64,000 bases of DNA from Bradyrhizobium semiaridum (lineage in GTDB: Bacteria > Pseudomonadota > Alphaproteobacteria > Rhizobiales > Xanthobacteraceae): assembly GCF_020329505.1 (NCBI RefSeq), contig NZ_JAGKJJ010000002.1, forward strand, positions 310,001 through 374,000. The letters run 5' to 3'. The notes below the pieces were generated by a model. That model was not told where the DNA came from, made no database searches, and saw only the letters and a program-made list of their open reading frames with translations. Made by a program: the position numbers and the translations under genes. How positions within the stretch are numbered: position 1 is the stretch's first letter; every line of letters begins with the position of its first letter. Of the stretch, positions 9,334 to 20,248 are shown piece by piece.

Positions 9334-9415
9334 GTCATTCCGGGGTTCGCGAAGCGAGAGCCCGGAATCCATCAGGCCGCATGTTCGGTGGATGAATGGA
9401 TTCCGGCGTCATGAC
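9334..9415. repeat. Intergenic palindromic repeat (GTCATTCCGGGG family)
   Basis: GTCATTCCGGGG, a GCGAAGCGAGAGCCCGGAATCC segment and GGATGAATGGATTCCGG followed by GTCATGAC form a folded element about 80 bases long. A related copy occurs at 21922-22025. Its right end contains the stop codon of the minus-strand membrane protein gene, so it may also terminate both convergent transcripts. Confidence 0.7.
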
Positions 9416-10071
9416 GCGAGCACCAGCGCGACTGCTCCGACCAGCACAAGGCTGGCGGCCCAGACGGTGTCCAAATTGAACCAGCTGCGCGATACGAATT
9501 TGAGGCCGAGATAGCGGTAGACCAGCCACGCCAGGCACCCGCCGGCGAGGATCATCGCGCCGGCGTGGACCACTGAGACCAGCAGCGCCATCGTGAAATT
9601 GGCATTGATCAGCGCACCGGCGGCCTCGTGGCCACGATCGGCATCGGCCTCCCGGCACAGCCCGAGATAGATCGGCAGCAGCATCAGCGCCGCGCCGTGG
9701 GCGATCGCGACGGTGAACGACCACAGTCCCAGTTGGGTCGGCGGGATCCGCGCCAGCGCCCGCGGATGACGGCGGTCGACCAGCCGGTAGATGCCGAAGG
9801 CGATGACGAGCAGGCTGGCCGCGATGCGGATCGGGCGTTGCCATTCGACCAGCGCGATCAGCATCGCGAATGGCAGGATCACCAGCAGCATCGCGAGCAG
9901 GTGCCCGATCGCGAGCGGCCCGAGCGCGCCAAGCAGCGCGCGCGGGGTTCGTTGCATCAAGCCGGCCGACACGGCGAGCGGCCAGCCCATTCCCGGGTTG
10001 ATCCCGTGGTAGAGGCCGCTCGCGATGACAGCCAGCCACAGCCAGGCCGGCGTCCAGTCGGCCGCACTCAC
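9409..10071 (-). CDS. Polytopic membrane protein of unknown function
   Basis: A 220-residue, very hydrophobic protein with about six membrane segments. The first helix carries GLYHGINPGMGWPLAVSAG and the third GHLLAMLLVILPFAML. Histidine-rich helix motifs of this sort occur in nickel/cobalt and UreH/TauE-like transporters, but I cannot place it in a family with certainty. It starts with GTG only two bases after the stop of the SBP56 gene, so the two are one operon. Its stop codon lies in a dispersed repeat, so the last residues may have been replaced by repeat insertion. Export of a sulfur compound or metal supply for the SBP56 protein are both possible. Confidence 0.6.
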   Translation of the reverse strand: MSAADWTPAWLWLAVIASGLYHGINPGMGWPLAVSAGLMQRTPRALLGALGPLAIGHLLAMLLVILPFAMLIALVEWQRPIRIAASLLVIAFGIYRLVDRRHPRALARIPPTQLGLWSFTVAIAHGAALMLLPIYLGLCREADADRGHEAAGALINANFTMALLVSVVHAGAMILAGGCLAWLVYRYLGLKFVSRSWFNLDTVWAASLVLVGAVALVLAS

Positions 10072-10073
10072 AT

Positions 10074-11474
10074 TCAGACCGAGGGATAGCAGAACGAGTC
10101 GGTCGAACAGTCGCCGCCGTCGAGCCGGATCTGATGCGCGCGGTAGCCGTCGGGGAGGCCGACCCAGAAATCCTTCGCCAGTTCGAGGCCGCCGTTCGGG
10201 CCGGCAATTGCCATCACCTCGGCGCCGGGAATGCCTTGCGGATAGAACTGGTCGTCCCAGGTCGAGTACAGCGAGTTGGTCCAGTACACCCGCTTGCCGT
10301 CGCGGCTGATCTCGACCATCTGCGGTCCGCCGGCAAAGGCCTGCCCGTTTGGATGCGGCGCGCGGCTAACGATGCCGCCGATCCGGACCGAGCCGGCAAG
10401 CTTCGGCTTGCGCGGATCGGAGACATCGTACTGGCGCATCTCGCCGGTGCCCCAGCAGGAGACGTAGAGGAAGCGGTCGTCCATCGACAGGTCGATGTCG
10501 GTGACCAGCGGCGGCACCGCGCCAAAGCCCTGCAGCAGCGGCGGCAGCTTGTCCTTCGGCGCGGGCTCGGGCGGGATCGTCGCCGTCTTCTCGATGTGAA
10601 ACTTGCCGCCCTCGCGCCACCAGGTCCAGATCGAGCCCTCGAGGTTCGTGGTATCGACCACGACGCCGACGAAGCCATATTCGCGCACCGGATCATGTGC
10701 CGGCCGCACCTCGAGTGCCATCTGATGGTTGGCGCCGAGATCGATGGTCTGGACGTTGCGGCGGGCGCGCAGATCCCAGAAGTGCAGGCGGTGGCCATAT
10801 TTGTTCGACAGCAGATCCTCCGGCACGATGCCGTTCTCGAACTGCGGCGGCAGCGCCCATTCGCTGCTCACCATGTAGTCGCGCGGCAGGTTCCACCAGA
10901 AGTCATAATGCTTGGTCTGCGAGCCGCGGTCGATCTCCCAGCGGCCGAGCACCTCGAACGTCTCGCAATCCATGATGAAGATGCCGGGCGGTCCGTCGGT
11001 GCCGTCCTTGCCGCCGCCGCCGAGTGTCGAGACATAGATGCCTTCCGGCCCGCAGTGGATCGTGTGCGGCCGCGAGTAGCCGGTCTTCTTGAAGACCTCC
11101 TCCGGCTCGATGATCTTGTGGATCTTGGCCTGCGTCGGATCCGGCTTGGTATCGATGATGTAGATCCGGGAGGACCGCATGCCGGGGATGATGAGGTAGC
11201 GGCGCTCGAGGAAGGCGTGGCCGGCGAGCGGTGACAGCGCCGACGAGCAGGCGTTCCAGCCGAAATGGTGGAACTCGTCGCCCGTGTTGGGCATCGTCAC
11301 GGTGTGGACGATCTTGCTGTAGGTCGGCGAGCCGCGCTTGACGTCGATCACGGCCAGCGCATCCGGCCTGGAATGGTCCGGACTGAGCAACACGGTATAG
11401 GCGAAGTTCTCGGCCGGCGCTTCCATCGCGAGCTTCGGCGAGGCGTGGAACGTGGGATCTGGCCTCATCGTCAT
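10074..11474 (-). CDS. SBP56 family protein, methanethiol oxidase-like
   Basis: A 466-residue protein of the selenium-binding protein 56 family, a beta-propeller. Characterised members oxidise methanethiol to formaldehyde, sulfide and hydrogen peroxide using copper. Family landmarks are HHFGWNACSSA near residue 69, SSRIYIIDT, YDFWWNLPRDYMVSSEWA, and the C-terminal AHQIRLDGGDCSTD. I chose ATG 11474, which has AGGAGG seven bases upstream, instead of 11522. The CSSC motif of animal SELENBP1 is CSSA here (Cys76 kept). No export signal is seen, whereas bacterial MtoX is periplasmic, so methanethiol oxidase activity is not assured. It is transcribed with the membrane protein gene downstream. Confidence 0.85.
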   Translation of the reverse strand: MTMRPDPTFHASPKLAMEAPAENFAYTVLLSPDHSRPDALAVIDVKRGSPTYSKIVHTVTMPNTGDEFHHFGWNACSSALSPLAGHAFLERRYLIIPGMRSSRIYIIDTKPDPTQAKIHKIIEPEEVFKKTGYSRPHTIHCGPEGIYVSTLGGGGKDGTDGPPGIFIMDCETFEVLGRWEIDRGSQTKHYDFWWNLPRDYMVSSEWALPPQFENGIVPEDLLSNKYGHRLHFWDLRARRNVQTIDLGANHQMALEVRPAHDPVREYGFVGVVVDTTNLEGSIWTWWREGGKFHIEKTATIPPEPAPKDKLPPLLQGFGAVPPLVTDIDLSMDDRFLYVSCWGTGEMRQYDVSDPRKPKLAGSVRIGGIVSRAPHPNGQAFAGGPQMVEISRDGKRVYWTNSLYSTWDDQFYPQGIPGAEVMAIAGPNGGLELAKDFWVGLPDGYRAHQIRLDGGDCSTDSFCYPSV

Positions 11475-11761
11475 CGGCTGCCCTCCTGATTGTGTGATGT
11501 GATCAACACGGCACGGCGGCATGCAACGGCAAGAACTTCAAATCCGGATCGAAATGCCTCTTGCGAGTGCTGCCGGTCAAGGTTCGCTCGTGGGCAGATT
11601 ACACCTCAATGGTGACAGCTGAAAACAAGCTTCGGTGACGTCGCCAGCGCGGCATAGCCGCGCGGCGGGGGGCATGTGATCTGGCAGATTTGCTCAAGGG
11701 ATTGAATAAGCACCGATCCTGCAGGTGAATGTATGACTCGCGAGCGGCACCAAACATCTAG

Positions 11762-11932: not shown

Positions 11933-13129
11933 TTACTTCGCCACGATCTCCGGCACCTTGCCCGCGGGCGGCGTGTTGCGGCTGCGCTGGGTGCGGACGA
12001 TGCCGTCGATGATGGTCATGCCGATGCCGGGGAGATCGCCGAGCTGCACGCTGTCGAGGATGTTTTTGCCGGGCGAATGCTGCGCCTTGTCCATCAGGAC
12101 AAAATCGGCGGAGCGGCCGACCTCGATCAGGCCGCAATCGAGCTCGCGCATCCGCGCGGTGTTGCCGGTGGCGAGGCAGAACGCGAGCTCGGCGGGGAGG
12201 TCGCCGAGCGAGGACAGCAGCGAGACCATGCGCAAAATGCCAAGCGGCTGCACGCCGGAACCGGCCGGCGCGTCGGTGCCGAGGATGACGCGGTGCAGGT
12301 CGCCCATCTCGCGCGCGGTGCGCAGCGTGAACAGCGCCGAGCGCTCATTGCCGTTGTGCACCAGCTCAAGCCCGCGCTTGCAGCCCTCGCAGATGCAGCG
12401 GATCTGGTCGTCGGGCAGGGCGGTGTGGCCGCCATTGATGTGGCCGACCACGTCGGTGTCGGCCTCCAGCACCACGTCCTTGTCGATCAGGCCCGAGCCC
12501 GGGATCGAGGGGCCGCCGGTGTGGATCGTGCTTTGAATGCCGTATTTGCGTGCCCAGCCGACCATCTTGCGCGCCGTCGGGCCGTCTTTCACGCCGCCGA
12601 GCCCAACCTCGCCGAGCAGCTTGACGCCGGCGGCGGCCATCTCCTTGAAGTCGTCCTCGACCATCTCGCATTCGATTACCGGCGCGCCGGCATGCACCTT
12701 GACGCCGCCGGGCCGCAGCGTCCAGAACGCGCGCTGCGCGAAGATCGCCATCGCCTTGACGCCGACCACGTCACGCGGACGGCCGGGCATGTGGACCTCG
12801 CCGGCAGAGATCATGGTGGTGACGCCGCCATGCAGGTAGCTGTCGATCCAGTTGATCTGGTTCTGCCGCGGCGTCCAGTCGCCGGCGACCGGATGGACGT
12901 GGCTGTCGATCAGCCCCGGGGCGACGGTGGTGCCGTTGGCGTCGACGATGGTGGTGGCGCCTTCGGTGTCGACGTCCTTGAGGCGGCCGATTGCGGTGAT
13001 CTTGCCGTTCTCGGCGACGATGGTGTCGGCATCCAGGATCGGCTTCTCCAGCGCTCCCGACAAAAGTAGCCCGATATTGCGGATCACCAGCTTGCTGGGG
13101 CCGGTGGCCTGGGGCGCGTCGTGAGCCAT
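11933..13129 (-). CDS. ena: Enamidase (1,4,5,6-tetrahydro-6-oxonicotinate hydrolase)
   Basis: A 398-residue amidohydrolase that resembles Eubacterium barkeri enamidase along its length, including HGGVTTMISAG, PGRPRD, SIPGSG, HINGGHTA and the C-terminal SRNTPPAGK. Enamidase hydrolyses tetrahydro-6-oxonicotinate to 2-formylglutarate and ammonia. Candidate ligands of the binuclear metal site are His77, His79, Glu174, His203, His230 and Asp286. I start at ATG 13129, with an AAGGAA ribosome-binding site, because the longer frame to 13246 crosses the operator. It is divergent from the ferredoxin reductase gene, with a double operator between them. Together with hnr this defines the reductive nicotinate route. 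Confidence 0.88.
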   Translation of the reverse strand: MAHDAPQATGPSKLVIRNIGLLLSGALEKPILDADTIVAENGKITAIGRLKDVDTEGATTIVDANGTTVAPGLIDSHVHPVAGDWTPRQNQINWIDSYLHGGVTTMISAGEVHMPGRPRDVVGVKAMAIFAQRAFWTLRPGGVKVHAGAPVIECEMVEDDFKEMAAAGVKLLGEVGLGGVKDGPTARKMVGWARKYGIQSTIHTGGPSIPGSGLIDKDVVLEADTDVVGHINGGHTALPDDQIRCICEGCKRGLELVHNGNERSALFTLRTAREMGDLHRVILGTDAPAGSGVQPLGILRMVSLLSSLGDLPAELAFCLATGNTARMRELDCGLIEVGRSADFVLMDKAQHSPGKNILDSVQLGDLPGIGMTIIDGIVRTQRSRNTPPAGKVPEIVAK

Positions 13130-13175
13130 GGTGGTTTCCTTCTGTCCTGAAATTGCTCGGGAATTTGAGCCCGGC

Positions 13176-13204
13176 TTGACTTTCGGATCAAGCCGGATTA
13201 TTCG
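13176..13204 (+). promoter_or_regulatory. Putative promoter of the ferredoxin reductase gene
   Basis: TTGACT (13176-13181) is followed after 17 bases by TATTCG (13199-13204), which runs into the left arm of the operator. The -10 is poor, so the exact placement is uncertain. Confidence 0.35.
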
Positions 13205-13233
13205 TTTGTATACGAATGATCGTATACAAACGA
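13202..13233. promoter_or_regulatory. Double MarR-type operator, site 3
   Basis: TCGTTTGTATACGA (13202-13215) is repeated in perfect inversion at 13220-13233 across ATGA. It can be read as two adjacent 14-bp cores: 13204-13217 fits RTTYGTAYACRAAY perfectly and 13218-13231 fits with one mismatch. It lies midway between the divergent ena and ferredoxin reductase genes and could control both. Confidence 0.7.
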
Positions 13234-13246
13234 TCCGGCCGGTCAA
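13219..13246 (-). promoter_or_regulatory. Putative promoter of ena
   Basis: On the minus strand TTGACC (13241-13246) and TACGAT (13219-13224) are 16 bases apart, with the operator covering the spacer and -10. This is the same geometry as the promoter at 814-841. Confidence 0.45.
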
Positions 13247-13293
13247 CAGGGTTCAAGTCCTTATCCGCGCAGCACAAATCAGGGATTGGTGCG

Positions 13294-14067
13294 ATGAGCA
13301 ATTTCAACCAGGAAAGCGTCCTCAGCGTTCATCACTGGACCGACACGCTGTTCTCCTTCAAGACCACCCGCAATCCCACCTTCCGCTTCCGCAACGGCGA
13401 GTTCACCATGATCGGCCTCAAGGTCGGCGAGAAGCCGCTGCTGCGCGCCTACAGCGTCGCCAGCGCGAATTACGAGGACACGCTCGAATTCTTCTCGATC
13501 AAGGTGCCGGACGGTCCGCTGACCTCGCGCCTGCAGCACCTCAAGGAAGGCGACGAGATCATCGTCAGCCGCAAGGCCACGGGCACGCTTGTCATCGACA
13601 ACCTCGAGGACGGCCGCAACCTCTATCTGGTCGGCACCGGCACCGGGCTTGCCCCGTTCCTCAGCGTGATCAAGGATCCCGAGACCTATGACCGCTTCGA
13701 GAAGGTCGTGCTGCTGCACGGCTGCCGCCGCGTCAAGGAGCTCGCCTATGGCGAGATGATCACCGAGAAGCTGCCGAACGACGATCTGATCGGCGAGCTG
13801 GTGCGCGAGCAACTCATCTATTACCCGACCGTGACGCGCGATCCGTTCCGCAACCGCGGCCGCATCACCGACCTCATCACCACGGGAAAACTGTTCGACG
13901 ACATCGGCCTGCCGGCGCTCGACGCCGCGCATGACCGCGTCATGATCTGCGGTTCGCCGGCGCTGGTCGCCGACACCCGCACGCTGCTCAACGGCCGCGG
14001 CTTCGTCGAGGGCAATCACGGCGAGCCGGCGCAGTTCGTGGTCGAGAAGGCGTTCGCCGAGCGCTGA
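13294..14067 (+). CDS. fpr: Ferredoxin-NADP reductase
   Basis: A 257-residue flavoprotein of the bacterial Fpr type. RAYSVAS (residues 51-57) is the FAD-binding motif, GTGTGLAPF (114-122) the nucleotide-binding motif, LLHGCRRVKELAY a family segment, and the C terminus reads VVEKAFAER. It moves electrons between NADPH and ferredoxin or flavodoxin. The start at 13294 has AGGGA upstream. It shares the double operator with the enamidase gene, so it is probably induced with the pathway. I infer that it supplies reduced ferredoxin to Hnr. A housekeeping role in oxidative stress is the alternative, but the operator argues for a dedicated copy. Confidence 0.88.
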   Translation: MSNFNQESVLSVHHWTDTLFSFKTTRNPTFRFRNGEFTMIGLKVGEKPLLRAYSVASANYEDTLEFFSIKVPDGPLTSRLQHLKEGDEIIVSRKATGTLVIDNLEDGRNLYLVGTGTGLAPFLSVIKDPETYDRFEKVVLLHGCRRVKELAYGEMITEKLPNDDLIGELVREQLIYYPTVTRDPFRNRGRITDLITTGKLFDDIGLPALDAAHDRVMICGSPALVADTRTLLNGRGFVEGNHGEPAQFVVEKAFAER

Positions 14068-14189: not shown

Positions 14190-14963
14190 TTACGGCCTTA
14201 CCGCAGGCGTCTCCAGCTTCATGCCGCGCGCCCGCGACATCAGATACGCCTCCAGTTCCACCAGCTCGGGCGAACCATATTCGTAGGCCTGCGCGCGGAT
14301 GCCGGTGATGCAGGCGCGCAGCCGCCGCTGCAGCGATCCGAGCGACTGCCATTCCAGCCGGTAGAGCGGATAGCCGGTCGGCTGTCCCTGCGTGATCGGC
14401 GCGCCGGCAAGCTTCCTGTCCCAGTTGTCGTCATGGCAATTGGCGCAGGCGAGATTGAGCTGGCCCTGCCGCCGGGTGAACAGCTCGTGTCCCTTGGCGA
14501 CGAACGGTGCGAGATCGGGATCATTGCCAACCTCGATCGGCATGCCCCTCGATTGCTGCGCGACATAGGCTGTCAGCGCCAGCAATTCGCGGCTTTCGTA
14601 GGCGAGGGGCGGCGCCTGCTGGTGGTTGCTGCGGCAGAGATTGATCCGCCCTTCGAGATCGACCGGCTTGCCGAGGGCCTTGTCGAAGGTCGGATAGCGC
14701 GCCGCGACGCCCTTCATGCTGACGCGCGCGTCGCTGTGGCAATCGCCGCATGCCTTGCCCGCGGTGCCGGCCTTGCGTTTCCACAGCGTCTCGCCGTCGA
14801 GCACCCAGAGCATGCCGGGGTTGGACGTGTCATCATCCTGCATCGCCCTGCTGTCGGGGCCCATGAAACTGTAGCCGGAGCGGCGATCGGCTTGCGGAAT
14901 CTCGGTCGCGAGCGCGGTGCCCGCCAGCGCCGCCAGGATCGCGATGCAGCCGACGAACTTCAT
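14190..14963 (-). CDS. soxA: Sulfur oxidation diheme cytochrome SoxA
   Basis: A 257-residue secreted c-type cytochrome (signal peptide to about residue 19). Two heme motifs are present: CGDCH (72-76) and CANCH (173-177). Cys110 in LCRSNH is not a complete heme motif. Cys218, in RACITGIRAQ, matches the cysteine that in SoxA carries a persulfide and coordinates the active heme. SoxAX attaches thiosulfate to SoxY. The ATG overlaps the soxZ stop (ATGA). It is the last gene of the minus-strand operon and ends next to a strong palindrome. Confidence 0.9.
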   Translation of the reverse strand: MKFVGCIAILAALAGTALATEIPQADRRSGYSFMGPDSRAMQDDDTSNPGMLWVLDGETLWKRKAGTAGKACGDCHSDARVSMKGVAARYPTFDKALGKPVDLEGRINLCRSNHQQAPPLAYESRELLALTAYVAQQSRGMPIEVGNDPDLAPFVAKGHELFTRRQGQLNLACANCHDDNWDRKLAGAPITQGQPTGYPLYRLEWQSLGSLQRRLRACITGIRAQAYEYGSPELVELEAYLMSRARGMKLETPAVRP

Positions 14964-15280
14964 TCGACCGTGATCGAAGCCGATGCGGTCTCCGAAAACC
15001 CCTTGTCGCCGACCCACTCGAATTCGAACTTGCCGCTTTCGGTCACCGTGGTGAAGAAGGTGAGGAATGGATTGGCGGCGATTGCCGGATAAAGATCGGC
15101 ACGGAAAATCTCCGCGCCGTTGAAGCGGCAGGTGAAGCTCGTGATGATGTCGCGCGGCACCACCTCGCCGGAGGCGGTGTGGCGATAGCCGGTTTCCATG
15201 ATGTGCGACATCAGCGTCTTGATCTCGATGACATCGCCGCGCTTCGCTTTCGACGGCACGTTGATCAGCGCGGACGGCAT
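14960..15280 (-). CDS. soxZ: Sulfur carrier complex subunit SoxZ
   Basis: A 106-residue protein that matches SoxZ in length and sequence (KAKRGDVIEIKTLMSHIMETGYR near the N terminus, then CRFNGAEIFRADLYPAIAANPF). It has no signal peptide, as expected, since SoxZ is exported with SoxY by the Tat system. It forms the carrier complex SoxYZ. The start overlaps the soxY stop by one base (TGATG) and the stop overlaps the soxA start. Confidence 0.92.
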   Translation of the reverse strand: MPSALINVPSKAKRGDVIEIKTLMSHIMETGYRHTASGEVVPRDIITSFTCRFNGAEIFRADLYPAIAANPFLTFFTTVTESGKFEFEWVGDKGFSETASASITVE

Positions 15281-15759
15281 CAGATCGCCTCCTCGGTGCA
15301 GGCGGCGAGCGTCACCACGACGTCTGCTGTCGCCGACCAGAACGTATCGTCGGAGAGCCGCGCGATCGCCGTCACCTTCTGGCTGTCAGCGAGGCGGATG
15401 CGGGTCGAGACCTGGGCGCGGCCTGCCCGCGGTCCGAGATAAAAATTGCCGATGTTCGGCTGCGGGTTCTTCTCATTGAAGACGTGGATGCTCTTCACAT
15501 AGTCATCCGTCGTCATCGGGCTGGCGACACTGACGGTCATCGGCACGGTGTTGCCGTTCTCGACCAGCGGCGGGATGTCGAGCTTGACCCTGCCGGTGCG
15601 CACATTGGCTTCGCCGACGACGTTGCGGATCGCTGCCGACAGCATCGCCGGTGTTGCCTCCGCCGGACGCACGATGACGGCCGGAACCGCTCCCAGCACG
15701 GCAGCGCCACCGGCGAGGGTGAGAAACGTTCGGCGCGTGGTGTGATCCGAATTCGGCAT
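15280..15759 (-). CDS. soxY: Sulfur carrier protein SoxY with atypical C terminus
   Basis: A 159-residue protein with a Tat signal (TTRRTFLTLAGG, residues 7-18) and the SoxY core. In characterised SoxY the substrate is bound to a cysteine in a C-terminal GGCGG swinging arm. Here the end reads VTLAACTEEAI: Cys154 is kept but the flanking glycines are not, and three acidic or polar residues follow. I start at ATG 15759, with AAGGA upstream; the ATG directly before it (15762) is also possible. A small dispersed repeat separates soxX from soxY. Confidence 0.88.
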   Translation of the reverse strand: MPNSDHTTRRTFLTLAGGAAVLGAVPAVIVRPAEATPAMLSAAIRNVVGEANVRTGRVKLDIPPLVENGNTVPMTVSVASPMTTDDYVKSIHVFNEKNPQPNIGNFYLGPRAGRAQVSTRIRLADSQKVTAIARLSDDTFWSATADVVVTLAACTEEAI

Positions 15760-15776
15760 CATTGTCCTTTGCTTGC

Positions 15777-15821
15777 GCATGATCTTATCGGCAAACCGGT
15801 TCCCACTTTTCCGGATCATGC
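15777..15821. repeat. Short dispersed palindromic repeat (GCATGATC family), copy 1
   Basis: GCATGATC and GATCATGC bracket an AAACCGGTTCCCACTTTT-like centre. A close copy is at 44091-44138. It lies inside the sox operon between soxX and soxY. Confidence 0.75.
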
Positions 15822-15822
15822 G

Positions 15823-16272
15823 CTAGTCCCGCAGTGTCACCAGATAGGCCACGATATCCTCGATCTGCTCCGCCGACAGGATTGGCTTGTCGCGCCACGC
15901 ATTGCCGACGCGCGTCAGCCCGTCGATGCGATAGTAGGACGGCATGATCGTTGCCGGATCGAAGTGCGACGCATCGACCAGGCGGAGCCGCAGCTGTCCC
16001 TCCGACCAGCGGCTGCCGCTGCCGGACAGGTTCGGCGCGAGATCGCCCTGAAACGCCTGCTCGGGAAATGGGCCGCTGTGACAGAGGATGCAAGTCGAGG
16101 AACGCTCGACGATCAGCGCCCGGCCACGTGTTGCATCGCCTTTGGTTCCCGTGAGCGAGTCGGGAACCGCATCGCCCGCCACGGTGTAGGGAAGCAGGCC
16201 CTCTGCACCCGCAGGCCCGCAAGCTGCGAACGCAGCGGTCGCGAGCAACGCGATGAGGACGGGCCTAGCCAA
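15823..16272 (-). CDS. soxX: Sulfur oxidation cytochrome SoxX
   Basis: A 149-residue monoheme c-type cytochrome with a signal peptide ending near residue 23. The heme motif is CILCH (61-65) and Met110 in ATIMPSYYR is the likely distal ligand, both as in SoxX. It forms the SoxAX complex with SoxA, encoded three genes downstream. The ATG overlaps the end of the flavoprotein gene by eight bases. Confidence 0.9.
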   Translation of the reverse strand: MARPVLIALLATAAFAACGPAGAEGLLPYTVAGDAVPDSLTGTKGDATRGRALIVERSSTCILCHSGPFPEQAFQGDLAPNLSGSGSRWSEGQLRLRLVDASHFDPATIMPSYYRIDGLTRVGNAWRDKPILSAEQIEDIVAYLVTLRD

Positions 16273-17536
16273 AGGCGTCCTCCGTGATTGTCTTGAACCA
16301 GTTCACCGCCTCCTCGGCCTCGCGCTGCCGCATTTCGCGCGGTGCATCGACCGGGCTCGTGGTCACTTCGGCCTCGGCGTATTGATCGTCCTTCGGTTGA
16401 TAGATGCCGCGCAGCGAGAACGCGTAGCCCGGTGCCACCGTGTTGTAGCAGGCACCATCGAGCCGCGGCGTCTCCGGCGGCCTGCCCGCGAGCGCATTCA
16501 CGATCGCCGCCGCGCAGGCGCGGCCCTGCGCCGCGGCGGCAGAGGCGGATTTCGGAATGCCGCCGGCGATCGCGGCATCGCCGATGACGTGGATGTTGGG
16601 CACCAGCTTCGAGGCGAAGGTGATGGGATCGATCGGGCACCAGCCGGTGCGGTCGGCGGCGCCGGCGATCGCGGCGATGCGGCCGGCGCGCTGCGGCGGG
16701 ATCACGTTGGCGACCGCGGCGGTGTAATTGCCGAAATCGGTGACGATCTCATTCGCGGCCGGATTGACCGCGGTGACCCGGCCGCCCTGCGACAGCGCGA
16801 TGCGCTCGATCATGCCGGGATAGAGCTCCTGCCAGGCCTTCTCGAACAGCTTTTGCTGCGAGTAGCCGTCCTTGGCGTCGAGCACCAGGATCTTCGAGCG
16901 CGGCTTGTTCGCCTTCAGATAGTGCGCGATCAGGCCGGCGCGCTCGTAAGGCGCCGGCGGACAGCGCAGCGGGGCCGCGGGCACTGCGATCACGACGAGG
17001 CCGCCGTCGTCCATGGCCTCAAGCTGTCGGCGCAGCAGCAGTGTTTGCGCACCGGCCTTCCAGGCATGCGGCATCTTTTCCGCCGCCGCCTCGTCATAGC
17101 CGGAAAGGGCGTCGAAGCGCATGTCGATGCCGGGCGCGAGCACCAGCTTGTCGTAGGCTAGCGTCGTGCCGTCGGCGAGACCGATCGTACGTCCCTGCGC
17201 GTCGACCTTGCTGGCCGCCTGCGCAGCGATGGTGACGCCGTCGGCTGCAACCCTGTCGTAGCTGAATTGCTGCTGCGGAAGATCGCGCAGGCCGGCAATC
17301 ACCTCGTTGCTGAACGGGCAGGCGGTGAAGGTCTTGTTAGGCTCGATCAGCGTGACCTGCAGTTTCGCATCGAGCCGCCGCAGCGCCCGCGCGCAGACTG
17401 TGCCGCCGAAGCCGCCGCCGATCACGGCAACGCGGGCTGCGCCTTGCGCCAGCGACGGACGCGCCAGCGCCGCCGCCGCGACGGCAGCGGCGCCACCAAT
17501 GACATTCCTGCGCGTCAGGCGACGCGTGACGGCCAT
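16265..17536 (-). CDS. Flavocytochrome c sulfide dehydrogenase-like flavoprotein
   Basis: A 423-residue exported FAD protein with a Tat signal (TRRLTRRNVIGG). AVIGGGFGGT is the dinucleotide-binding motif. Cys73 in FTACPFSNEV corresponds to the flavin-linking region of FccB, and Cys192 (RCPPAPYERA) with Cys300 (GWCPID) fit the redox-active pair of sulfide dehydrogenases. SoxF of Sox clusters is the same family. The usual cytochrome partner FccA/SoxE is missing, but SoxX is encoded immediately downstream. An alternative ATG at 17593 overlaps the stop of the molybdopterin subunit gene; I prefer 17536 because it puts the Tat motif at the N terminus. Confidence 0.85.
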   Translation of the reverse strand: MAVTRRLTRRNVIGGAAAVAAAALARPSLAQGAARVAVIGGGFGGTVCARALRRLDAKLQVTLIEPNKTFTACPFSNEVIAGLRDLPQQQFSYDRVAADGVTIAAQAASKVDAQGRTIGLADGTTLAYDKLVLAPGIDMRFDALSGYDEAAAEKMPHAWKAGAQTLLLRRQLEAMDDGGLVVIAVPAAPLRCPPAPYERAGLIAHYLKANKPRSKILVLDAKDGYSQQKLFEKAWQELYPGMIERIALSQGGRVTAVNPAANEIVTDFGNYTAAVANVIPPQRAGRIAAIAGAADRTGWCPIDPITFASKLVPNIHVIGDAAIAGGIPKSASAAAAQGRACAAAIVNALAGRPPETPRLDGACYNTVAPGYAFSLRGIYQPKDDQYAEAEVTTSPVDAPREMRQREAEEAVNWFKTITEDAFG

Positions 17537-17592
17537 GCACGACAATCCGGAAAGCGAAGCAGCGGCCGAACCGGCCGCTGCTTCTGATTGCA

Positions 17593-19788
17593 TCAGGCGA
17601 AAGTGATGTTCTGGCTGCGCAGCGGGAAGCTGCGGATGCGCTTGCCCGTCGCCGCGAAATAGGCGTTGAGCACCGCCGGCGCCGCGACGCCGATGGTCGG
17701 CTCGCCGACCCCGCCCCAGAACCCGCCGCTCGGCACCATCACCGATTCCACCTTCGGCATTTCGTTGATCCGCATCGAGTTGTAGGTGTCGAAATTGGTC
17801 TGTTCGATGCGGCCGTCCTTCACGGTGCAGCCGCCGTAGAACAGCGCGCTGAGGCCATAGACGAACGAGCCCGCGATCTGGCGCTCCACCTGCGCCGGGT
17901 TGACGATGTAGCCCGGATCGGTGGAGGCGACGATGCGATGCACCTTGATCTTGCTGCCGTCGGTGACCGAGATCTCGGCTGCTCCCGCGACATAGCTGCC
18001 ATAGCCCATCACCTGCGCGATGCCGCGATAGACGCCGTTCGGCGCCGGCGTGCCCCAGCCGATCTTCTCGGCCACGGCATTGAGCACCGCCAGATGCTTC
18101 GGATGCTTGCCCATCAGCTTGCGGCGGAATTCGAGCGGGTCCTGGCCGACGGCGTGGGCCAGCTCGTCCATGAAGCATTCCATGTAGATCGCGTTGTGAT
18201 TGACGTTGACGCCACGCCAGAAGCCGGGCGGGACGTGCGGGTTGCGCATCGAATGCTCGACCAGCAAGTTCGGCACCGAGTAACCGATCGCGGCCTCGCC
18301 GGTCTGTGCGACGCCCTGGAACGCGGCGGGGTCCATGCCGTTCTGCAGCGCTTCGGGACGCACCGAGAACAGGATGGATTGGCCCGAGAGGCGGTAGTGC
18401 AGGGCGATCAGGTTGTTGTCGGCGTCGAACGCGCCGGTCAGCTTGCACTGCGTGATCGGGTGGTACTTGCCATGCTGCATGTCCTCTTCGCGCGACCACA
18501 GCAGCTTGACTGGCGTGCCCGGCATCTGCCTGGCGATCGCCACCGCCTGGCGGACATAGTCGGTCATGCCGCGCCGGCCGAAGCCGCCGCCGAGCAGCAG
18601 CTTGTGCACGTCGACCTTCTCCGGCGGCAGGCCGGAGGCCTCGAGCGCCGCGGCGAACGCCGCCTCGCCATTCTGCGTGCCGCACCACACCTCGCATTTC
18701 TCGGGCGTGTAGAGCACGGTGGCATTCATCGGCTCCATCGTGGCGTGGTTCTGGTAGGGGTAGCTGTAGACAGCTTCGACCTTCTTAGCCGCGCCGGCAA
18801 TCGCAGCCTTGGCGTCGCCGTTCTGGTTGCCGATATAGGCAGGTTGCGCATTGTCGAGGCCCTCGGCCAGCCATTTTGCAATCGTCTCGCTGGAGACCTT
18901 GGCGTTATCGCCTTCGTCCCAGATGATCGGCAGCGCGTCGAGCGCCGTCTTGGCGTGCCACCAGGTGTCGGCGACGACGGCGACCGCGCTGTCGCCGACC
19001 TGCACCACCTTCTTGACACCCTTCATATTGGCGATCTTGGCGGCATCAAAACTCTTCAGCTTGCCGCCGAACACCGGGCAGTCCTTGATCGCGGCGTTCA
19101 GCATGCCCGGCAGCTTGACGTCGGCACCGTAGATCATCTTGCCCGTGACCTTGTCGGCGGTATCGAGCCGCTTCAGGCCCTTGCCGGCGATGGTCCAGTC
19201 CTTCGGGTCCTTCAGCTTGACGTCGGCCGGCGGCTCGAGTTTTGCGGCCGCTTCTGCGACCTTGCCGTAGGTCGTGGTCTTGCCGGACGGCGTATGCGTG
19301 ATCACGCCGCTGGAGACCTTGCATTCGGTGGCCGGCACCTTCCACTCATTGGCGGCGGCCTGGATCAGCATCACGCGCGCGGTGGCGCCGCCCTTGCGGA
19401 CATAATCCTGCGAGGAGCGGATGCCGCGGCTGCCGCCGGTGGAGAAATCACCCCAGGCGCGCTTGCGGGCGACGCTCTGGCCGGGCGTCGGGAATTCGGT
19501 CGTGACCTTCGACCAGTCGCACTCCAGCTCCTCGGCGACGAGCTGGGCGAGGCCGGTCAGCGTGCCCTGGCCCATCTCTGAGCGGGCGATGCGGATCACG
19601 ACGGTCTCGTCGGGCCGGATCACCACCCAAGCGTTGACTTCAGGAGCGTTGATCTCGGGCGAGCCGTCGGCCGCGCGCACCACGGCGGGGCCGCCAAACG
19701 GAAGGTCGAGGCCGATCGCAAGGCCGGCACCCGCGGTTGCTGCGCCGACCACGAAGGAGCGGCGGTTGATCTTGACGTGCTGATTCAT
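17593..19788 (-). CDS. Molybdenum hydroxylase large subunit (isoquinoline oxidoreductase-like)
   Basis: A 731-residue molybdopterin subunit of the xanthine dehydrogenase family with a Tat signal (NRRSFVVG). It has the IorB-like domain order, starting with VNAWVVIRPDETVVIRIARSE. LLGGGFGRRG is a cofactor-binding motif, and Glu in GGVGEPTIGV near the C terminus is the likely catalytic base. It is therefore periplasmic and passes electrons to the 2Fe-2S subunit. The ATG at 19788 has AAGGGGG upstream. Substrate is unknown: relatives oxidise aldehydes or N-heterocycles. Co-transcription with sox genes is the notable feature. Confidence 0.88.
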   Translation of the reverse strand: MNQHVKINRRSFVVGAATAGAGLAIGLDLPFGGPAVVRAADGSPEINAPEVNAWVVIRPDETVVIRIARSEMGQGTLTGLAQLVAEELECDWSKVTTEFPTPGQSVARKRAWGDFSTGGSRGIRSSQDYVRKGGATARVMLIQAAANEWKVPATECKVSSGVITHTPSGKTTTYGKVAEAAAKLEPPADVKLKDPKDWTIAGKGLKRLDTADKVTGKMIYGADVKLPGMLNAAIKDCPVFGGKLKSFDAAKIANMKGVKKVVQVGDSAVAVVADTWWHAKTALDALPIIWDEGDNAKVSSETIAKWLAEGLDNAQPAYIGNQNGDAKAAIAGAAKKVEAVYSYPYQNHATMEPMNATVLYTPEKCEVWCGTQNGEAAFAAALEASGLPPEKVDVHKLLLGGGFGRRGMTDYVRQAVAIARQMPGTPVKLLWSREEDMQHGKYHPITQCKLTGAFDADNNLIALHYRLSGQSILFSVRPEALQNGMDPAAFQGVAQTGEAAIGYSVPNLLVEHSMRNPHVPPGFWRGVNVNHNAIYMECFMDELAHAVGQDPLEFRRKLMGKHPKHLAVLNAVAEKIGWGTPAPNGVYRGIAQVMGYGSYVAGAAEISVTDGSKIKVHRIVASTDPGYIVNPAQVERQIAGSFVYGLSALFYGGCTVKDGRIEQTNFDTYNSMRINEMPKVESVMVPSGGFWGGVGEPTIGVAAPAVLNAYFAATGKRIRSFPLRSQNITFA

Positions 19789-19798
19789 GGCTGCCCCC

Positions 19799-20248
19799 TT
19801 ACGCGTTCGCGGCAGCATGGATCGCCTCGCGCACCTGCTGGAAGGTGCCGCAGCGGCAGATGTTGGTGATGGCGTCGTTGATGTCGTCGTCGGTCGGCTT
19901 GGGATTGTCCTTCAAGAGCGCCGCGACGGCCATGATCATGCCGCTCTGGCAGTAGCCGCATTGCGGCACGTCATTGGCGATCCAGGCCGTCTGCACCTTG
20001 TGCAGCACGCCGTTGACGGCAAGGCCCTCGATCGTGGTGATCTCCTTGCCGGCAGCTTCGCCGACCGTGACGCCGCAGGAGCGCATCGCCACGCCGTCCA
20101 TATGCACCGTGCAGGCGCCGCATTGCGCGATGCCGCAGCCGTATTTCGTTCCGGTCAGTCCGACATTCTCCCTGATCGCCCACAGCAGTGGCGTGTCGTC
20201 CTCGACGTCTACAGTGATTGTCTTGCCATTGATTTTGAGGTTTGCCAT
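19799..20248 (-). CDS. Molybdenum hydroxylase 2Fe-2S small subunit
   Basis: A 149-residue protein with the plant-type 2Fe-2S motif [11 protein letters not shown] plus RSCGV, and the second cluster motifs CGYCQSGM and ICRCGTF. It is the electron-transfer partner of the large subunit encoded 10 bases downstream, and would be exported as a complex with it because it lacks its own signal. I start at ATG 20248, preceded by AGGGGA. It appears to be the first gene of the seven-gene operon that ends with soxA. Confidence 0.9.

Follow-up and report, generated by a model that had tools for sequence, protein, structure and literature searches.

An operon of Bradyrhizobium semiaridum joins homologues of the sulfur-oxidation proteins SoxX, SoxY, SoxZ and SoxA to a molybdenum (Mo) hydroxylase; it is a separate Sox type and not a broken set awaiting SoxB. 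The stretch analysed, hereafter the window, comprises 64,000 nucleotides (assembly GCF_020329505.1, contig NZ_JAGKJJ010000002.1, positions 310,001 to 374,000). The operon occupies 14190-20248 of the window; its genes, each read from the minus strand, run FeS - MoL - FCSD - SoxX - SoxY - SoxZ - SoxA, where FeS and MoL (the Mo pair) are the two hydroxylase subunits and FCSD is a flavocytochrome c sulfide dehydrogenase-type flavoprotein. At the level of predicted genes, the hydroxylase, SoxXA and a SoxYZ whose carrier arm ends in AAC form one conserved unit, to which FCSD, alone or together with a small cytochrome c, may be added. Judged likewise from gene content, SoxB, SoxCD and a true SoxY need not share a genome with the operon. 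Its status as a separate type follows from the AAC arm and from 21 genomes that carry the operon and in which neither SoxB nor SoxC nor a true SoxY exceeds the cut-off of the respective family model. There is about an even chance that the hydroxylase, SoxXA and AAC-arm SoxYZ are a distinct Sox class whose periplasmic substrate is an organosulfur (or related carbon) compound, oxidised without SoxB or SoxCD, and which is the sole Sox system of various soil, freshwater and marine proteobacteria. That MoL oxidises a free carbon-sulfur or aldehyde substrate in the periplasm, with the modified Sox part taking the sulfur, is a tentative proposal whose chances we put slightly short of even.

The seven genes are the following.

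19799..20248, minus strand: FeS, 2Fe-2S subunit (Pfam Fer2/Fer2_2; likely start ATG at 20248)
17593..19818, minus strand: MoL, Mo-cofactor subunit of the xanthine-oxidase family (Pfam MoCoBD_1/2; likely start 19788)
16265..17536, minus strand: FCSD, flavocytochrome c sulfide dehydrogenase-type flavoprotein (Pfam FCSD_central and FCSD-flav_bind)
15823..16272, minus strand: SoxX (Pfam Cytochrom_C; one CxxCH haem motif; NCBIfam TIGR04485, 70.7 against a cut-off of 61)
15280..15819, minus strand: SoxY paralogue with AAC arm (Pfam SoxY; TIGR04487; tail VVTLAACTEEAI)
14960..15280, minus strand: SoxZ (Pfam SoxZ; NCBIfam TIGR04490, 88.8 against a cut-off of 76)
14190..15017, minus strand: SoxA (Pfam SoxA-TsdA; TIGR04484, 237.1 against a cut-off of 110; likely start ATG 14963)

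A first-pass annotation had described seven genes with overlapping or close ends, and the identities that it gave them were borne out by the Pfam and NCBIfam models. Given the internal ATG at 14963, the start of soxA overlaps the stop of soxZ by 4 bases, and MoL and FCSD are separated by 56 bases, with no cytochrome c subunit gene beside FCSD. The open frame of FeS extends to 20275, 20248 being an internal ATG, and no signal peptide was seen by eye at its N-terminus. MoL has a predicted Tat (twin-arginine translocation) signal (TIGR01409 over cut-off), a GGGFGRR loop and a GGVGEP glutamate motif. Twin-arginine N-termini were recognised by eye in FCSD, whose Cys regions read CPPAPYER and CPID, and in SoxY, which contains a single Cys. 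SoxA contains two CxxCH motifs and the cysteine motif RLRAC. We take the motifs of MoL, SoxA and FCSD to have the functions familiar from their families. Neither soxB nor soxCD lies within the operon, and its Mo enzyme is indeed, as had been proposed, of another type than SoxCD: MoL has MoCoBD domains and SoxC an Oxidored_molyb domain.

The carrier protein sets the operon apart from canonical Sox. The SoxY of the window, with the tail VTLAAC, scores over the cut-off of TIGR04487, 'SoxY-related AACIE arm protein' (232.3 against 172), and under that of TIGR04488, the equivalog model of true SoxY with its GGCGG arm (110.6 against 125). Seven more loci of the module (L062-L065, L067-L069) likewise have SoxY ends in AAC or SAC, whereas all six canonical sox loci have the GGCGG arm. 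In the 61 complete operons described below, SoxY terminates in AAC (55), PAC (3), SAC (2) or GAC (1) followed by 2-6 residues, and none has a GGC arm; this count excludes L108 (different tail, incomplete order) and L133 (spurious weak match).

The association with MoL is tested independently when the search starts from TIGR04487. The model passes its cut-off in 96 of 117 genomes of the genus, and MoL orthologues at at least 81% identity occur in 99, the next group standing near 43% (a second MoL copy at 74% in genome G046 was excluded). Both are found in 95 genomes, on separate contigs in two of them. An apparent SoxY without Mo pair (G087) was rejected, the contig ending inside FCSD. In a sample of 398 genomes from the phylum, 15 pass the cut-off, six of which also belong to the genus count. 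MoL thus lies within 6 kb of SoxY on one contig in 93 of the 96 genus genomes and adjacent to it in 15 of 15 from the phylum sample, which answers how often the hydroxylase accompanies these Sox genes. Five further matches just below cut-off (four in family f33, one in G508) all carry the operon. Family f33 would be Hyphomonadaceae, since the MoL of Henriciella algicola is 99% identical to that of G450 and Hyphomonas groups with G206. No MoL was found in the stretches around the six canonical sox loci (L027, L070-L073, L077).

Named genomes were also scanned with a seven-sequence MoL alignment, of which the best 80 loci were kept; they are not a census, and the presence of MoL is uninformative there because it served to find them. 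The full set in the same order and strand, FeS-MoL-(cytc)-(FCSD)-SoxX-Y-Z-A, stands in 61 of these 80 loci (44 alpha-, 10 beta- and 5 gammaproteobacterial, 2 unassigned). The possibility raised in the first-pass annotation that the hydroxylase accompanies soxXYZA in this genome only is thereby excluded. Between MoL and SoxX, 28 operons have a small cytochrome c and FCSD, 16 FCSD only and 16 neither; the remaining one has no FCSD there, and its available sequence begins just before MoL. FCSD is likewise absent from the operon in G508 and in four genomes of 1.7-2.1 Mb from family f81, which may be Polynucleobacter. The cysteine motif of SoxA is kept in 59/59 readable copies, the arm Cys of SoxY in 61/61 complete operons and the first Cys motif of FCSD in 47/47 frames; the second FCSD motif was found in 32/47 by strict pattern, and six others inspected by eye have a Cys at the site.

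Among the 19 loci outside the 61, three (L118, L133, L152) have the Sox part elsewhere in the genome, and in six (L090, L091, L101, L137, L144, L157) the sequence ends within about 4 kb after MoL. Inquilinus, Reyranella and a Rokubacteriota metagenome-assembled genome (MAG) were considered as Sox-less and rejected, an AAC SoxY set being present elsewhere in each genome; the operon of Inquilinus is split over two short contigs. Nine loci (L096, L097, L099, L102, L107, L108, L110, L112, L122) form a gammaproteobacterial group in the MoL tree, with an XdhC-like gene after MoL in six.

SoxB was sought in the window's own genome and in 29 genomes hand-picked from the 80 loci, mainly named isolates. 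It passes the cut-off in 13 of these 30 and not in the other 17, namely Henriciella algicola, H. mobilis, Hyphomonas CY54-11-8, a Ponticaulis MAG, Microvirga makkahensis, Microvirga BSC39, M. massiliensis (likewise Microvirga), Skermanella aerolata, Mesorhizobium RMAD-H1, M. muleiense, Inquilinus limosus, Noviherbaspirillum aerium, Ancylobacter aquaticus, Duganella radicis, D. rivi, Siccirubricoccus deserti and Belnapia mucosa. These 17 come with no completeness figure, and a draft assembly may have gaps in its gene content. A second set comprised 11 genomes, of which seven pass; the other four, all from family f33 and rated 100% complete, give no match, and the operon was read in each. All 21 SoxB-less genomes carry the operon, 20 of them at one locus and Inquilinus over its two contigs. 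Below-cut-off SoxB matches occur in 11 of the 17 (at most about 173 bits against a cut-off of 550) and also in 10 of 14 control genomes. The five strongest (129-173 bits) were read as candidates for a hidden SoxB and rejected: they score higher against 5'-nucleotidase models and carry 5'-nucleotidase domains. SoxC is under cut-off or absent in all 21 genomes (15 of 38 tested pass). True SoxY is also under cut-off in all 21; TIGR04488 matches in 23/23 genomes tested, of which only the window's genome and Thiohalophilus pass; matches to the AAC SoxY itself fall short of the cut-off. In some of the SoxB-less genomes there is a match resembling sulfite dehydrogenase (150-188 bits) or another weak match of SoxY type.

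The genome of the window (6.7 Mb, estimated 99.99% complete) is not one of these. Its contig C50 has a soxX-Y-Z-A-B set, in which soxB scores 825 bits and SoxY is of the GGCGG type, and its contig C32 a soxCD pair. The first-pass statement that soxB and soxCD are lacking therefore stands for the operon and does not extend to the genome. A full sox cluster elsewhere, together with silence of the present one, had been named as a finding that would undo the proposal; the first half applies here, such genes lying on other contigs, but in 21 other operon genomes none of SoxB, SoxC and true SoxY reaches its cut-off. Just after soxB in the soxXYZAB cluster (L027, 10883-11923, plus strand) lies a metallo-beta-lactamase/rhodanese-like fusion with weak likeness to a sulfur transferase/dioxygenase model (97.7 against 625). 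Three to five SoxY genes per genome were counted in the four genomes of the genus Bradyrhizobium searched. For B. diazoefficiens, the accessible part of one study states that of two named soxY homologues only soxY1 of locus I is essential for thiosulfate oxidation (PMC5748708).

The Mo pair has the features of a xanthine-oxidase-family hydroxylase, i.e. MoCoBD_1/2 domains, the Glu motif and a paired 2Fe-2S subunit, and such an activity is predicted for it. No NCBIfam equivalog passes its cut-off for MoL or FeS, and a carbon monoxide (CO) dehydrogenase identity was rejected for MoL, the two corresponding models giving scores of 58 (cut-off 950) and 48 (cut-off 991). The closest solved relative by sequence is the large subunit of the membrane-bound aldehyde dehydrogenase of Gluconobacter oxydans, 8gy3 (E 1.8e-74), which is also the best fold match (8gy3_C, TM 0.83, 27% identity; AlphaFold2 model, mean pLDDT 82.3). 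In a tree built with FastTree only, in which two long-branch rows were flagged and 14 of 20 Bradyrhizobium loci were left out, a branch with full support separates the family, Sox-linked or not, from two Bradyrhizobium paralogues. Sox linkage is found in 55 of 78 rows (including L108) with scattered absences, 8 rows being undecidable at sequence ends; the nearest named MoL to that of the window is from B. pachyrhizi (94%). In L138, a Hyphomicrobiales MAG, three tandem Mo-subunit genes, two of them preceded by FeS genes in the available stretch, stand ahead of cytc-FCSD-SoxXYZA, and the third forms a deep branch in the tree.

In the preferred reading, MoL would hydroxylate a carbon of a free periplasmic substrate with oxygen from water, and its electrons would pass via FeS to a c-type cytochrome, either the small cytochrome c or SoxXA. 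The substrate would most likely be a carbon-sulfur compound, or an aldehyde derived from one. Hydroxylation beside the sulfur would break the C-S bond, and SoxXA could then couple the freed thiol, sulfide or sulfane to the cysteine in the AAC arm of SoxY; where FCSD is present, that enzyme could oxidise it instead. The carrier would be unloaded by something other than SoxB or SoxCD. A free substrate, with the Sox part downstream, is suggested by the optional nature of FCSD, by the constant presence of MoL with the AAC SoxY (save contig breaks) and by the Mo pair sometimes standing alone; its occurrence without these Sox genes also makes an upstream reaction on a free substrate likelier than one on SoxY itself. 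A carbon-sulfur substrate (or derived aldehyde) is favoured because SoxA and SoxY keep their sulfur-bonding cysteines while SoxB and SoxCD are dispensable. The cofactor genes next to the Hyphomonadaceae copies and the fold match to 8gy3_C also count in favour of the preferred reading.

Several observations weigh against this reading. Four genomes of the genus (G052, G057, G088, G096) contain MoL but no SoxY that passes TIGR04487; in G088 an 80-bit match lies beside a SoxZ, with no MoL in the stretch around it. In the nine genomes of the gammaproteobacterial group, TIGR04487 reaches 129 bits in that of L108, whose SoxY lies 3.4 kb after MoL and has a different tail, and 31-51 bits in seven others; the ninth gives no match. 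The genome of L089 has no TIGR04487 match at E 1e-5, yet the Mo pair is present. Genomes of this kind imply that MoL need not act on sulfur. FCSD is not universal, being absent between MoL and SoxX in 17 of 61 operons (an FCSD-like gene follows soxA in three of them, L121, L135 and L139), and SoxB does pass its cut-off in 13 of the first 30 genomes. The solved enzyme that MoL matches best acts simply as an aldehyde dehydrogenase. For the XdhC-like gene after MoL in L107, the nearest model is that of an aldehyde oxidoreductase maturation factor (187 against a cut-off of 350). By a crude twin-arginine pattern, present in 42/66 MoL, 36/61 SoxY and 27/47 FCSD frames, export is predicted only for part of the proteins. 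Finally, no organosulfur enzyme or transporter was recognised by eye among the 25 largest clusters of neighbouring genes, drawn from 60 of the 80 loci with Bradyrhizobium left out.

The alternative that survives best, graded serious and judged rather unlikely, is that SoxXYZA has been recruited to carbon oxidation: MoL would be an aldehyde dehydrogenase and AAC-arm SoxYZ with SoxXA an electron carrier, thiol trap or protector, no sulfur substrate being involved. The SoxA cysteine motif and the arm Cys of SoxY, both of which are needed for S-S bond chemistry, are kept throughout (59/59 and 61/61), and FCSD stands between MoL and SoxX in 44/61 operons with its first Cys motif in 47/47 frames; these features speak against a role outside sulfur metabolism. 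Recruitment is nonetheless consistent with the likeness of MoL to the membrane-bound aldehyde dehydrogenase in both sequence and fold, with the Mo pair found without these Sox genes in some genomes and with a precedent, the SoxYZ variants placed beside alcohol, methanol and formate dehydrogenases in the accessible part of a recent study (PMC11237559).

A second alternative, that MoL replaces SoxB and/or SoxCD by acting directly on sulfur held by the SoxY arm, so that thiosulfate or sulfide would be oxidised by new chemistry, is distinctly improbable. It would fit the 21 SoxB-less genomes, which also have no SoxC over cut-off, and the altered arm, as expected if the partner enzymes changed. MoL is, however, found without the AAC SoxY, the ordinary hydroxylase Mo loop is kept in 65/65 MoL frames and the Glu motif in 62/65, and the nearest structures are aldehyde and heterocycle oxidases; we know of no precedent for an enzyme of this Mo family attacking sulfane sulfur. 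Least probable, and largely refuted for the SoxB-less genomes, is a reading of the operon as an ordinary accessory Sox set for sulfide or thiosulfate, with SoxB and SoxCD supplied by other loci of the genome and the Mo genes adjacent by coincidence. The window's genome with its soxXYZAB and soxCD on other contigs and the 13 of 30 genomes with SoxB would allow it, whereas the 21 genomes in which SoxB, SoxC and true SoxY all miss their cut-offs, the gene order fixed across three classes and the different SoxY arm contradict it.

Around the operon, the neighbour clusters, named by eye, comprise XdhC-like genes in 12 loci, moa/mog-like genes in six Hyphomonadaceae loci and a two-component pair in six; they gave no hint of the substrate. 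XdhC- and MoaA-type cofactor genes lie beside the Hyphomonadaceae MoL copies, and a domain search confirmed both in L067, as well as XdhC plus a MobA-like gene in L107. A histidine kinase with its response regulator (so named by eye), a possible regulator, recurs a few kb from the operon or the Mo pair in L114, L115, L123, L145, L152 and L161, loci of several alphaproteobacterial families. In L097, L099, L107, L110 and L112, FeS-MoL is followed by XdhC-like and MobA/MocA-like cofactor genes with no Sox genes nearby; the copy of Thiohalophilus thiocyanatoxydans (L096) is without these cofactor genes. Loci L162, L163 and L164 (genomes G052, G088, G096) retain FeS-MoL without SoxXYZA, and in the first two it is followed by a 390-aa protein (no Pfam match for the L162 copy) and a second, 925-aa Mo hydroxylase. 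In the window, an amidohydrolase (minus strand) and a FAD/NAD-binding reductase-like gene (plus strand) lie next to soxA at 11933-14067; in several Bradyrhizobium loci, though not in every one, they accompany the operon at about 91-97% conservation. Two further genes follow.

10074-11522, minus strand: SBP56 selenium-binding protein, distant from curated methanethiol oxidase
9409-10071, minus strand: hydrophobic protein after SBP56, no Pfam or NCBIfam match

A methanethiol pathway through the SBP56 gene was rejected as a conserved part of the module, the MtoX model NF052453 scoring 97.6 against 650 and tblastn giving no match in L062-L069. Among the loci read, SBP56 lies beside the operon only in L074, L147 and L149, the last two being among the best 80.

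The operon is homologous to Sox but does not qualify as Sox by its defining features. As in the thiosulfate-oxidising system SoxXYZABCD, its homologues stand in the order X-Y-Z-A and the SoxA cysteine motif and SoxY arm cysteine are retained. In contrast, the operon contains neither SoxB nor SoxCD, its SoxY arm is AAC instead of GGCGG, and its Mo enzyme is of the xanthine-oxidase family whereas SoxC is of the sulfite-oxidase type. Truncated Sox systems without SoxCD are known, and the absence of SoxCD alone is thus not exclusive to this operon. The window's SoxY is a member of TIGR04487 (SoxY_para_1), a library entry that only names the family, to which the operon context, the Mo partner and the genomes free of SoxB and SoxC are additions. 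Compared with flavocytochrome c sulfide dehydrogenase, FCSD has the central and flavin-binding domains and the Cys regions, and no adjoining cytochrome c subunit gene. The aldehyde dehydrogenase 8gy3, which has a cytochrome c subunit, is the best relative of MoL, yet at only 27% identity in the fold alignment; to our knowledge it has no link to Sox. SoxYZ variants paired with a non-sulfur dehydrogenase recall the present operon, namely the quinoprotein-associated carrier TIGR04557 and SoxYZ-S2/S4, which, in the accessible part of the source, lie beside quinoprotein/methanol dehydrogenases and are proposed to serve carbon metabolism (PMC11237559). Those carriers are fused and stand beside PQQ or XoxF enzymes, whereas in the present operon SoxY and SoxZ are two separate proteins accompanied by SoxXA, and SoxY scores 62.5 against 140 for TIGR04557. 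In SAR324 genomes from plumes, FCSD is flanked by divergent SoxY and SoxZ, no further sox subunits were recovered and a novel mechanism was suggested; the accessible part of that paper draws no link to a Mo hydroxylase and mentions isoquinoline 1-oxidoreductase genes separately (PMC4782131).

In the literature searched, mostly outside subscription journals, no published description of a link between a Mo hydroxylase and Sox, or of such a SoxB-free set, was found. Surveys that take sox genes as a sign of thiosulfate oxidation would count this operon though SoxB, SoxCD and true SoxY can all be absent. Conversely, one SoxY phylogeny dropped sequences without the GGC motif, according to the accessible part of the paper, and such a filter would remove the AAC-arm SoxYs (PMC11237559). 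Hosts without SoxB make the combined action of MoL and the modified Sox part testable by one or two deletions. If the organosulfur or aldehyde role is true, members of Bradyrhizobium, Mesorhizobium, Microvirga, Duganella and the Hyphomonadaceae would have an unrecognised route in the sulfur cycle, and the chemistry of the Sox carrier would be wider than thought.

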